Shown: piece by piece, positions 1-5,917 of the stretch
How the letters are laid out: each line of letters starts with the position of its first letter
Position numbering within the stretch: the first letter of the stretch is position 1
From: Fidelibacterota bacterium
GTDB lineage: Bacteria; Fidelibacterota; UBA8477
DNA length: 5,917 nt
Direction of reading: 5' to 3'
Assembly: GCA_021734045.1 (NCBI GenBank)
Contig: JAIPJR010000119.1
Location: 1-5,917, forward strand
Notes under the pieces: generated by a model
Told to the model about the DNA's origin: nothing
Seen by the model: the letters and a program-made list of their open reading frames with translations, nothing else
Databases searched by the model: none
Program-made: the position numbers and the translations under genes

Positions 1-67
1 AAATATTCATCAGCCGCAGCCGGGTGGGATCACTCAGTGCCTTAAAAAATTCCGCTTTCTCGTCCAT
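1..67 (-). CDS. ArsR-family HTH transcriptional regulator, N-terminal fragment
   Basis: Reading the minus strand from the ATG at 67-65 gives 22 codons, MDEKAEFFKALSDPTRLRLM followed by NI, before the window ends. The pattern F-K-A-L-S-D-P-T-R-L-R-L is the hallmark first helix of the ArsR/SmtB winged-helix repressors, which are typically about 100 residues, so roughly four fifths of the gene lies outside the window. Family members are small dimeric repressors that release DNA on binding a metal(loid) or, in other branches, by redox or protein signals. The sensing residues are not visible, so the inducer cannot be stated. A weak ribosome-binding site, AGAAGG, lies about 9 bases upstream of the ATG. 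The gene is divergent from everything else in the window. A perfect inverted repeat 20 bases upstream of its start suggests autorepression. Family call is confident; the specific role is unknown. Confidence 0.85.
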   Translation of the reverse strand, partial: MDEKAEFFKALSDPTRLRLMNI

Positions 68-86
68 TGAATTTTACCTTCTTGCC

Positions 87-108
87 TATATGCGCAATCA
101 CGCATATA
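87..108. promoter_or_regulatory. Inverted repeat, likely operator of the ArsR-type repressor
   Basis: TATATGCG (87-94) and CGCATATA (101-108) are perfect inverted copies around the 6-base spacer CAATCA. The site lies 20-41 bases upstream of the arsR-like start codon and abuts its candidate -10 box. ArsR/SmtB repressors commonly bind AT-rich imperfect or perfect inverted repeats at their own promoter, so an autoregulatory operator is the natural reading. Binding itself is inferred. Confidence 0.5.
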
Positions 109-135
109 TAATAATGCAGAAAAGGTGCCCCGCAA
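108..135 (-). promoter_or_regulatory. Candidate sigma-70 promoter of the arsR-like gene
   Basis: On the minus strand, TTGCGG (135-130) is followed after 16 bases by TATTAT (113-108). Both boxes are imperfect matches to the sigma-70 consensus. The predicted transcription start would fall inside the inverted repeat at 87-108, which is the geometry expected for repression by steric block. Nearby A/T-rich alternatives for the -10 exist, so the exact box is uncertain. Confidence 0.35.
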
Positions 136-317
136 TTGAAAAATTGGCTTGAACTGCATTTTTTCCATCCGGACAGAGAGCATCAGATTATCGAATCGAA
201 AGGTACTCGCATTACCATTTCCTTCGGCTTTCAACTTTTTCATTCATCCGTTCAACGTAAAATATGCGGAAAGGTTACCGGCCGATAGTTCGGGTACCAG
301 AAGAGGGGAGCGTCAGG

Positions 318-736
318 ATGCGGGATACCAGCAACAGAATTCCACCAGCACGGCTTTACTATTTCGTCAGCCTGGTTTTTCTGCTGATTGGGAGCATTTG
401 GGGGCAAGACAGTTCATTTAATTTTTTCCCGGAAGATTCCTGGTTCAAACCACTTCTGCTGGATCCGGCAGCCGCCCAATCCAGCGCCAGTCTGTTGCAT
501 TTCAAGCTACAGATGACCCTACTCCCAAGGTGTACAGCCCGGTGAATCTGGTGTTTAATAATCTGCAAGGCAAAGTAGTGCTGTAGTTGGTCACTGAGTT
601 AGAGAATAGTGGCCACTATCAGGTAATCTGGGATAGCCGTGATGCGAGTTGTCATCCCGTCGCCGGTGGATTGTACCTGTACCGTCTCACGATTGGTGAT
701 CAAACGCGCCTCAGGAAAATGTTACTCACAAAGTAA
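318..736 (+). pseudogene. Chimeric pseudogene: DUF1207-type N-terminus fused to a T9SS sorting-domain C-terminus
   Basis: The best start is the ATG at 318, preceded by the purine-rich AGAGGGGAG; an in-frame ATG at 264 has no such site. The product starts with a signal peptide (hydrophobic run YYFVSLVFLLIGSIWG) and continues with FFPEDSWFKPLLLDPAAAQ, matching the intact DUF1207 protein encoded at 4029-4907. Compared with that copy, one T is missing near 500, so the frame runs into TGA at 543-545. Following the original frame gives ATDDPTPKVYSPVNL, then VFNNLQGKVVL, a TAG at 584-586, and another 49 codons to TAA at 734-736. This last part (ELENSGHYQVIWDSRD, PVAGGLYLYRL, RKMLLTK) is a typical T9SS type A sorting tail, which DUF1207 proteins lack. 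The gene therefore carries a fusion, a frameshift and a nonsense codon and should not make a working protein. The tail is not a copy of the protease tail next door. Confidence 0.8.
435..551 (+). repeat. Direct repeat copy 1 (DUF1207 N-terminal coding segment)
   Basis: This stretch matches 4143-4260 with four substitutions and one single-base deletion by hand alignment, about 96% identity. Similarity falls away sharply on both sides. It codes for the segment after the signal peptide, from DSWFKP to SPVNL. The two copies have the same orientation, lie about 3.6 kb apart, and bracket the protease gene. Confidence 0.9.
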
Positions 737-3698: not shown

Positions 3699-3805
3699 GA
3701 TGTTTCCAGATTGTATTCGTAAGTCTTCTTTTCCAGGACATATCGGGGTAAAAAAAGGACATCCCTTGATTCAGACTGGAGCGGCAAGTAAACAGCAATT
3801 AAGTC

Positions 3806-4006
3806 CTAGCCATAGATTTGTATTTGTACAGTCCAACCGCTGACAATCGAACGATTTGCAAGAAGTAGTTCACCAATTATCTGACACAGCAAAAAAGTCC
3901 CCGAAGAGGTTGTAATCATACGCTCCGGATTGGGTTGATCCTTGCCGAGGTATTGATATCTGTTTCCATCTTTCCCTCCGACTGATATACTACCATTTGA
4001 AATCAA
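3806..4006 (-). pseudogene. Possible remnant of an FG-GAP-like (integrin-type) repeat gene
   Basis: On the minus strand, one frame gives KDGNRYQYLGK (around 3973-3941). After a one-base frame change another gives GAYDYNLFGDFFAVSDNW (3926-3873), ending at a TGA at 3872-3870, and in a third frame SAVGLYKYKS appears near 3843-3814. The order fits FG-GAP/integrin-like repeats, where a display strand like 'Y..DG..Y.Y' is followed by 'DY.FG..VAVS.NW..VG' and then the next 'G.VYLYKY'. Such repeat proteins are common among secreted proteins of FCB-group bacteria. With two frame changes and one stop in under 200 bases it would be dead. The similarity is judged by eye from short segments and could be chance. 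The 66-codon open frame from 4006 to 3806 covers this area but makes no recognisable product on its own. Confidence 0.3.
3963..3991 (+). promoter_or_regulatory. Candidate promoter of the DUF1207 gene
   Basis: TTTCCA (3963-3968) lies 17 bases before TATACT (3986-3991), and the -10 is preceded by TG at 3983-3984, giving an extended -10. Transcription would start near 3998, about 31 bases before the GTG at 4029. The -35 matches consensus at only four of six positions, but the extended -10 compensates. Confidence 0.42.
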
Positions 4007-4028
4007 TAAACTGCAGGGGCGGGTAAGC

Positions 4029-4907
4029 GTGAAATTTCACAATAAAATCAGACATCACAACATTTTCAAAATGCTGCTTCTCGGCGTTTTTCTGACCTGC
4101 CAACTGCTGGGAGCGCCAAACCAAATTACATTTTTCCCGCGTGATTCCTGGTTCAAACCACCACTGCTGGATCCGGCAGCAGCCCAATCCAGCGCCAGTC
4201 TGTTGCGTTTTCAAGCTACAGATGACCCTACTCCCAAGGTGTACAGCCCGGTGAATCTGGGTTTTCAGAAAATTTTGATTCGCAAGCAAACAGGATTTCA
4301 TAAGGGCTGGGAAGCGGGTGTAGAATTTGGCATTCACACGCAGTTCAGCATTATTTCCACGCCCACGGCACCCATGGGCGGACTGGACAATACCGATTAC
4401 CTCATCGCCGGAATATGGCATTACAAGCATGGCAGAACTGTTGAGCGGGTCCAACTTTTCCATCAATCCTCCCATCTGGGGGATGATTACCTCATCCGTA
4501 ATCAGATAGTGGAACCCAATAATCGTTCCCAGAATTATGAGCAACTCAGTTATCTGAGAGCTCATACCGGGAAATCCACACGCTGGTACTACGGGCTGGG
4601 TGTAAACATCTCACCCAACACCGTCCGTGAGCGGATTGTGGTGCAGGGCGGGATGGAAATTGTTCAACCAATGGGTGAGAATAATCGGGCGATTCAGCTG
4701 CTGGCGGGTGTAAATGTGAAATTGTATGGGGAGCATGACTATTACCCCAATCTTAAGACGGGTGCGGGTGTGCGATTTTCCCGGGATAAACGCTCCGGAC
4801 TTACATTGCTGGTAGAGTATTACCACGGACATTTGCCGTATAGCACGCTGGCTTACCAAAAAGTGAGTTGGCTGGGGTTGGGTGCTTATTTGCAGCCCAG
4901 GTTTTAA
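4029..4907 (+). CDS. DUF1207 family protein, predicted outer-membrane beta-barrel
   Basis: The 292-residue product begins at GTG 4029, preceded by a purine-rich AGGGGCGGG. The in-frame ATG at 4071 lacks a ribosome-binding site and would cut off the basic start of the signal peptide. Residues 1 to about 28 are a signal peptide (basic IRHHNIFK then a hydrophobic MLLLGVFLTCQLLG). FFPRDSWFKPPLLDPAAAQ follows, then alternating aromatic and polar strands. HQSSHLGDDYL (145-155) is the signature I associate with DUF1207, as are VEYYHGHLPY near the C-terminus and the general layout. The chain ends in Phe, as beta-barrel proteins inserted by the BAM complex usually do. DUF1207 proteins have no established biochemical function; transport or lipid-related roles would be guesses. 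Its 5' part is duplicated in the pseudogene at 318-736. It has its own candidate promoter, and the 71-base gap to the thioesterase gene allows read-through. Confidence 0.82.
   Translation: MKFHNKIRHHNIFKMLLLGVFLTCQLLGAPNQITFFPRDSWFKPPLLDPAAAQSSASLLRFQATDDPTPKVYSPVNLGFQKILIRKQTGFHKGWEAGVEFGIHTQFSIISTPTAPMGGLDNTDYLIAGIWHYKHGRTVERVQLFHQSSHLGDDYLIRNQIVEPNNRSQNYEQLSYLRAHTGKSTRWYYGLGVNISPNTVRERIVVQGGMEIVQPMGENNRAIQLLAGVNVKLYGEHDYYPNLKTGAGVRFSRDKRSGLTLLVEYYHGHLPYSTLAYQKVSWLGLGAYLQPRF
4143..4260 (+). repeat. Direct repeat copy 2 (inside the intact DUF1207 gene)
   Basis: This is the partner of 435-551, with about 96% identity by hand alignment. The copy is in frame and codes for DSWFKP to SPVNLG of the intact protein. 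It retains the T that is missing from copy 1, so this copy is likely the original or less damaged one. Confidence 0.9.
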
Positions 4908-4941
4908 CCATGCGAAATTGTCCCACGAAATCTGAATTGCT

Positions 4942-4958
4942 TACCAAGGCCATTGGTA
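4942..4958. other. Small inverted repeat between the DUF1207 and thioesterase genes
   Basis: TACCAA (4942-4947) and TTGGTA (4953-4958) pair around GGCCA. No T run follows, so it is not an intrinsic terminator. It lies about 20 bases before the thioesterase start and might slightly affect translation or be a weak operator. It may also mean nothing. Confidence 0.25.
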
Positions 4959-4978
4959 TGGAATGAGTGCTCCCACTG

Positions 4979-5728
4979 ATGTCAAAATTTGAAGCCATCC
5001 GCCAGGTCAGAGGATCCCATGTGGATTTTCAGAACCACCTGCGCCTGAATGCGCTTTTCCAATACATGTCAGACGCTGCGCTGAATCATGCCGAACAACT
5101 TCACCTGGGCTTGTTCGATTTGCAGAAGGCCGGTTATTTCTGGGTTTTGGCGTGGGCGCGGGTGGAGATTGAACGTTATCCTATTTTCAACGACAACGTG
5201 CGCATTCAAACCTGGCCTTTGCGCATTTATAAACGTTTCATCCTGCGAGAATTCCTGTTCAAAGACGCGTCAAGTGGCAAGGAATTGGGACGAGGGCGCA
5301 CAGCGTGGCTGATTGTGAGCGTGAATTCAGGTCGTTCGGTGCAGCCGGAAGCATCAGGTCTGGCATTCCGGTTCGGGAATTATGAATCGGTAATGTCTGC
5401 GCTGCCGGAGCGCATTCCGGTTCAGGAAAATGTTGTCCCGGTCTATTCCCGCCAAATCCGGATGCATGATATTGATGTAAATCGGCATGTGAACAATACC
5501 CGCTATGTGGAATTCCTGCTGGATGCCTACACCCCGGCCGATTTTGAAGGGGGACAGATTAACACTTTCACCATCTCCTTCCTGGCGGAAACACGGTTAG
5601 GAACAACATTGGAGATTACGCGAGGCGCTCAGCCCGGGGTGCCACAGGCTGATTATTTGGCGGCTGTTCATCGTGAAACCGGAAAGCCAGCTGTACAGGG
5701 ATTGGTGACTTGGCAGAAACAGAAATGA
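4979..5728 (+). CDS. Acyl-ACP thioesterase (FatA/FatB family)
   Basis: The enzyme hydrolyses acyl-ACP to free fatty acid and holo-ACP in the cytoplasm, ending or diverting fatty acid synthesis. The 249-residue product has the double hot-dog build of acyl-ACP thioesterases and a normal length for bacterial members. The N-terminal half carries LNALFQYMSDAALNHAEQLH and the conserved WVLAWARVEIERYP; the C-terminal half carries DIDVNRHVNNTRYVEFLLDAY. Asp166, Asn168 and His170 match the D-x-N-x-H catalytic motif of plant FatB, and Glu204 lies 34 residues after the His, the same spacing as the catalytic Glu there. The neighbouring Cys of the plant enzymes is Thr205 here, which fits the newer Asp-Asn-His-Glu model over the older Cys one. 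I chose ATG 4979 with GGAATGAG upstream; GTG 4967 would add four residues (MLPL). It shares GC-rich composition with trmO, 22 bases downstream, and probably its transcript. Chain-length preference cannot be read from sequence. Confidence 0.9.
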   Translation: MSKFEAIRQVRGSHVDFQNHLRLNALFQYMSDAALNHAEQLHLGLFDLQKAGYFWVLAWARVEIERYPIFNDNVRIQTWPLRIYKRFILREFLFKDASSGKELGRGRTAWLIVSVNSGRSVQPEASGLAFRFGNYESVMSALPERIPVQENVVPVYSRQIRMHDIDVNRHVNNTRYVEFLLDAYTPADFEGGQINTFTISFLAETRLGTTLEITRGAQPGVPQADYLAAVHRETGKPAVQGLVTWQKQK

Positions 5729-5750
5729 TGAAAAGAGGCACTCAATACTT

Positions 5751-5917
5751 ATGAAATTTGAATGCGAAACCATCGGTATCATTCACACCCCTTTTAATAC
5801 ATTGGAAAATATGCCCATTCAGCCCATCGTGGGTGAGGGGATTGAGGGCGAGGTGATTGTCAATCCTGAATTGGTGGCTGGATTGAAAGACCTGGATAAG
5901 TTCAGCCACATTTATCT
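5751..5917 (+). CDS. trmO: tRNA (N6-threonylcarbamoyladenosine(37)-N6)-methyltransferase TrmO, N-terminal part
   Basis: Only the first 55 codons and two bases of the next are present; the window edge cuts the gene. The start reads IGIIHTPFNTLENMPIQP, then GIEGEVIVNPELVAGLKDLD and FSHIY, which is the N-terminus of the TrmO/TsaA (YaeB) family. TrmO uses S-adenosylmethionine to methylate the t6A nucleotide at position 37 of certain tRNAs, giving m6t6A, in the cytoplasm. The family has a small beta-barrel fold unlike other methyltransferases; the conserved FSHIYL segment is part of it. The ATG at 5751 has a modest AGAGG about 12 bases upstream. ATGs at 5725 and 5728, overlapping the thioesterase stop, are in other frames. 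Short spacing suggests co-transcription with the thioesterase gene. Some archaeal and bacterial family members are annotated only as SAM-dependent methyltransferases, so the symbol rests on family membership. Confidence 0.88.
   Translation, partial: MKFECETIGIIHTPFNTLENMPIQPIVGEGIEGEVIVNPELVAGLKDLDKFSHIY

Follow-up and report, generated by a model that had tools for sequence, protein, structure and literature searches.

The reading frame at positions 318-736 of the DNA analysed here joins the start of a DUF1207 gene to the end of a gene for a protein with a type IX secretion system (T9SS) sorting tail. On balance, it is probably a non-functional recombination scar left by an exchange between sister species, in which the head was incoming and the tail resident. 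The window, that is the whole stretch of DNA analysed, is an entire contig of 5917 bp (C104) from a metagenome-type draft genome of 2.54 Mb in 119 contigs (G000). It was compared with a congener from the same co-assembly (G001), in which the DUF1207 locus is carried by contig L031, and with a second congener (G002). In the following, W1 denotes the chimeric pseudogene and W2, or copy 2, the DUF1207 gene at 4029; heads of the W1 and G001 kind are called type-1, and heads of the W2 and G002 kind type-2. The features of the window are as follows.

1-66, minus strand: 5' part of a divergent gene for an arsR-family regulator, truncated at the edge of the contig; orthologous to a gene for a 136-aa ArsR-like protein in G001 (L031 4134-4544, plus strand)
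1-439, plus strand: block shared with G001, comprising the arsR start, the intergenic region and the DUF1207 head of type-1, which starts at 264 or 318; 97.3% identical to G001 over 1-400
318-551, plus strand: truncated DUF1207 head, a pseudogene, with the same start as the intact 311-aa G001 gene and a 1-bp deletion at about 500
440-470, plus strand: switch zone of W1 from G001-like to copy-2-like sequence, the point of homologous exchange; G001-type sites end at about 439, and copy-2-type sites begin at 471
471-551, plus strand: segment duplicated from the body of the copy-2 DUF1207 gene (= 4179-4260); informative sites all copy-2-like, the remainder private to W1
542-552, plus strand: illegitimate junction, with GTGAATCTGG (542-551) as a possible short homology; W1 matches copy 2 as far as 551/4260
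552-736, plus strand: 3' stub of a lost gene with a T9SS sorting tail, with a TAG at 584-586; assigned from profile matches and tail homology in the same genome
822-3698, plus strand: intact S8 subtilase gene whose product bears a T9SS type A tail of its own (PF00082, PF18962); absent from the congeners
3956-4028, plus strand: region preceding copy 2; 36 bp of it (3956-3991) are shared at 92% with G002, where they lie directly 5' of the DUF1207 gene
4029-4907, plus strand: intact DUF1207 gene with a type-2 head (copy 2); matches PF06727 over most of the protein (E 1.4e-26)
4967-5728, plus strand: acyl-ACP thioesterase-like gene (PF01643), next to DUF1207 in G002 too

A DUF1207 head joined to a sorting tail

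The initial annotation had described this locus as a chimera in which a DUF1207 head is joined to a sorting tail and which has since decayed, and this description holds: the homology of W1 to DUF1207 stops at 551, and homology to sorting tails extends over 552-736. Likewise, the switch at about 551 lies in the original frame, as had been proposed, and the join falls at a VNL that is in register, with SPVNLVFNNLQGKVV aligning to the strand S.V.L.IYN..G..V of other G000 tails. The frame of the tail is the DUF1207 codon frame as it was before the deletion at about 500. Both of the decay marks that had been named, this deletion and the TAG, are present, and disabling changes are thereby found in both halves of the fused frame.

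The open reading frame at 264-545 matched no Pfam family, and no match to the PF06727 profile over most of the protein was obtained. Judging from sequence comparison, the head of W1 is a truncated second DUF1207 allele, because the same head in G001, beside the same arsR gene, runs into an intact DUF1207 gene without a tail. This G001 gene (L031:3002-3937, 311 aa, PF06727) is the only DUF1207 gene of its genome. It shares with W1 the head, the arsR neighbour, the signal peptide and the start (MRKGYRPIVRVPEEGSVRMRDTS...), but it is intact and untailed, whereas W1 is cut at 551 and frame-shifted.

Translated from codon 548, the tail reads LVFNNLQGKVVL, a stop, LVTELENSGHYQVIWDSRDASCHPVAGGLYLYRLTIGDQTRLRKMLLTK and a second stop. 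Its profile matches were below the respective cut-offs, both for FlgD_ig (E 0.001, 19.4 bits, cut-off 27) and for TIGR04183 Por_Secre_tail (E 0.002, 17.8 bits, cut-off 23), and no match to PF18962 was reported; the assignment to T9SS type A tails is therefore not made at the level of profile cut-offs. Its homology to C-terminal tails among the secreted proteins of G000 is nevertheless clear from 58 matches including the tail itself, i.e. 57 other places, the best of which has an E-value of 1.2e-11 and 43% identity. With the T9SS type A sorting domain the tail shares the V.L.IYN..G..V strand, WD.RD, GLYLYRL and the basic end; it differs in consisting only of the C-terminal ~62 codons, in its sub-cut-off score and in its internal stop. 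The search for a donor of the tail, as proposed in the initial annotation, gave no candidate, either by protein in the own genome, where the match at 43% was the best, or by DNA in 21 relatives, where nothing rose above chance. The tail appears to be what remained of the 3' end of a gene that would have stood beside the subtilase gene.

W1 is a mosaic of two DUF1207 alleles

Within the window, 418-502 is 89% identical to 4126-4210, and 500-561 is 94% identical to 4209-4270, with an exact match of 52 bp (500-551 = 4209-4260). The view that the head is nearly identical to the gene at 4029 proved correct for about 418-551, but not for 1-439, where both the signal peptide and the upstream region are unlike those of W2 and match G001. 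Window positions 1-556 aligned to G001 at 94%, after which the alignment ended, and 4131-4906 aligned to the remainder of the same G001 gene at 92%. In G002, the DUF1207 gene begins with a type-2 head, as at 4029.

A three-way comparison of W1, W2 and G001 site by site placed the change more precisely. Up to 439, W1 sides with G001 at nearly all informative sites. From 471 to 551, wherever W1 agrees with only one of W2 and G001, the partner is W2, at every site. Therefore, what was duplicated is sequence of the resident gene itself, and the part preceding it represents a G001-like allele. The duplicated tract is certain over 81 bp and may measure up to 112 bp. The fusion marks one of the breakpoints of a more extensive rearrangement, in which these 81-112 bp of DUF1207 were duplicated as well. 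Changes private to W1 were found at 454-455, 472 and 499 and in the deletion at 500, as expected of decay.

Exchange between the two congeners

Aligned DNA of G000 and G001, 88 kb in all, shows 81% identity. None of 1683 overlapping 400-bp windows elsewhere in the two genomes reached 97% (maximum 94.8%), against the 97.3% of window positions 1-400, which are partly non-coding. This difference between 97.3% and 81% points to a foreign source of DNA, the direction of transfer left aside. The thioesterase gene is a patchwork between the same two genomes (4988-5917 versus L031rc 4717-5643), with 50-bp blocks that show 0 differences and others that show 12-15, i.e. 0% beside 25-30% divergence, and at the level of sequence this suggests repeated short-tract exchange between the species. 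Together, the head block and the thioesterase patchwork indicate recent exchange at the locus. W1 can be read as a reasonably clear relic of DNA exchange between two sister species that share a community, and one in which both the homologous and the illegitimate side of the event can be placed.

Among the other genomes searched, 16 of 59 have a DUF1207 gene, one apiece. These 16 open reading frames encode 291-317 aa and are too short for an extra tail, so that, as the initial annotation had presumed, DUF1207 genes of relatives do not normally carry it.

Origin of the fused reading frame

Whatever the account, W1 requires a homologous switch at 440-470 together with an illegitimate join at 551. 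In the account that we favour, incoming arsR-DUF1207 DNA would have paired by homology with the resident DUF1207 gene, and about 100 bp of the resident DUF1207 sequence would then have been copied. The copied end would have been joined illegitimately, perhaps at GTGAATCTGG, to the tail gene of the resident, which lay about 3.5 kb upstream. This join would have replaced everything 5' of the tail, whereas the resident genes for DUF1207, subtilase and thioesterase would have stayed intact, and the chimera would have decayed afterwards. An incoming head is the simplest single event, and the direction of transfer, i.e. whether the head or the subtilase block came in, is suggested by synteny with the two congeners.

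Homology on one side combined with illegitimate joining on the other is known from competent bacteria and from conjugating Escherichia coli, as outlined in PMC3240628. With homology-facilitated illegitimate recombination as outlined there, the W1 event shares a homologous side, namely the switch at 440-470 inside DUF1207, and another side without long homology (551). The break at 551/552 is clear; such joins typically involve a few bp of identity, for which GTGAATCTGG is a possible candidate. Also shared are the gain of foreign DNA and the rearrangement of local sequence. The W1 event differs from the process outlined in that source in that a short resident tract was apparently copied before the jump, as in a template switch, and in that it was read from a metagenome and not from an experiment.

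A rather unlikely alternative is that the ancestor carried, in a row, a type-1 DUF1207 gene, the tail gene, the subtilase gene and a type-2 DUF1207 gene, and that copy 1 became fused to the tail through a deletion, while in G001 the interval was lost by crossover between the copies. The resulting order of genes would be identical, and the G001 gene could be the crossover product. However, an extra gene conversion would be required, since 471-551 is copy-2-like and not G001-like at every informative site, and two DUF1207 genes in one genome were not found in any relative searched.

It is improbable that, conversely, a block of tail, subtilase gene and type-2 head entered a G001-like locus, with a homologous right side in DUF1207 and an illegitimate left side at 551. 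The uninterrupted state would then be visible in G001, the duplication of 471-551 would follow directly from the event, and the subtilase gene has a patchy distribution within the order and, in one relative (G007), stands next to an IS21 istB-like gene. Against this, copy 2 is flanked on both sides as in G002, by the 36-bp upstream element and by the thioesterase gene, suggesting that this is the native side.

An artefact of assembly or strain mixing at 551, which the initial annotation had raised as an objection, is highly improbable, even though the window is a short contig of a metagenome bin and related species were assembled together. Three pairs of contig ends from G000 and G001 share exactly 139 bp and then diverge, among them the right end of the window (5779-5917); the other ends involved are the starts of L093, L114 and L104 and the end of L116. 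We infer that a single de Bruijn assembly with k=140 left these shared ends. Therefore, the two genomes were apparently sequenced together, and exchange between them is natural. Because the sole exact repeat at the junction measures 52 bp, too short for a mis-join at a word of 140 bp, an assembly error is unlikely, although smaller words of an iterative assembler could still act. Moreover, mis-joining would not produce the disabling changes that are private to W1. As regards the membership of this short contig in the bin, no further DUF1207 gene was found in G000, and the thioesterase region had no second match there. Exactly shared contig ends may serve as a general test for two bins from one assembly.

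Least credible of all is that an outer-membrane protein captured a sorting tail and was once expressed and later lost, for which the join at VNL in frame and in register may speak, but the fusion retains only ~78 residues of the DUF1207 protein, an intact fusion was found in none of the relatives searched, the tail immediately precedes the subtilase block, and the DUF1207 changes private to W1 include a frameshift. The proposal that W1 is a snapshot of a tail moving onto a new protein was not borne out, as the head is shared with the sister species, where it starts an intact untailed gene beside arsR. There is no sign that the fusion was ever retained as a protein, and as evidence for tail capture it is weak at most. 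As a caution, where a sorting tail stands alone on an unrelated head, it may be what is left of an adjacent gene rather than a captured domain. We consider it very doubtful that short, similar V.L strands of unrelated secreted proteins are preferred join points and that failed fusions such as W1 are by-products of a general route of in-frame reshuffling of T9SS tails; a literature search of limited scope on type IX sorting-domain shuffling found nothing.

Neighbouring genes

Full-length homologues of the subtilase were found in only 2 of 21 relatives searched (G007 and G021), and in the congeners searched neither the subtilase nor the tail was present. Among 85,000 species genomes, a search for close relatives of the subtilase returned distant subtilases only (26-32%), so that no intact upstream gene came into view. 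Between the subtilase gene and the upstream region of DUF1207, positions 3699-3955 contain no long open reading frame and have no match in relatives, and may represent decayed sequence. The non-coding 36-bp element at 3956-3991 is possibly a promoter or regulator site. Its interpretation as a piece of a minus-strand gene was dropped, as no open frame is shared with G002 and no Pfam match was obtained. In G000 and G002, the DUF1207 and thioesterase genes are adjacent, unlike in G001, where a redoxin-domain gene and two opposite-strand genes separate them (L031 936-2984). Lastly, in G007 an istB-like ATPase gene of IS21, recognised by eye, lies directly upstream of the full-length subtilase homologue (L087 171-977 and 1057-3996, respectively), and the subtilase protease may therefore travel with mobile elements.
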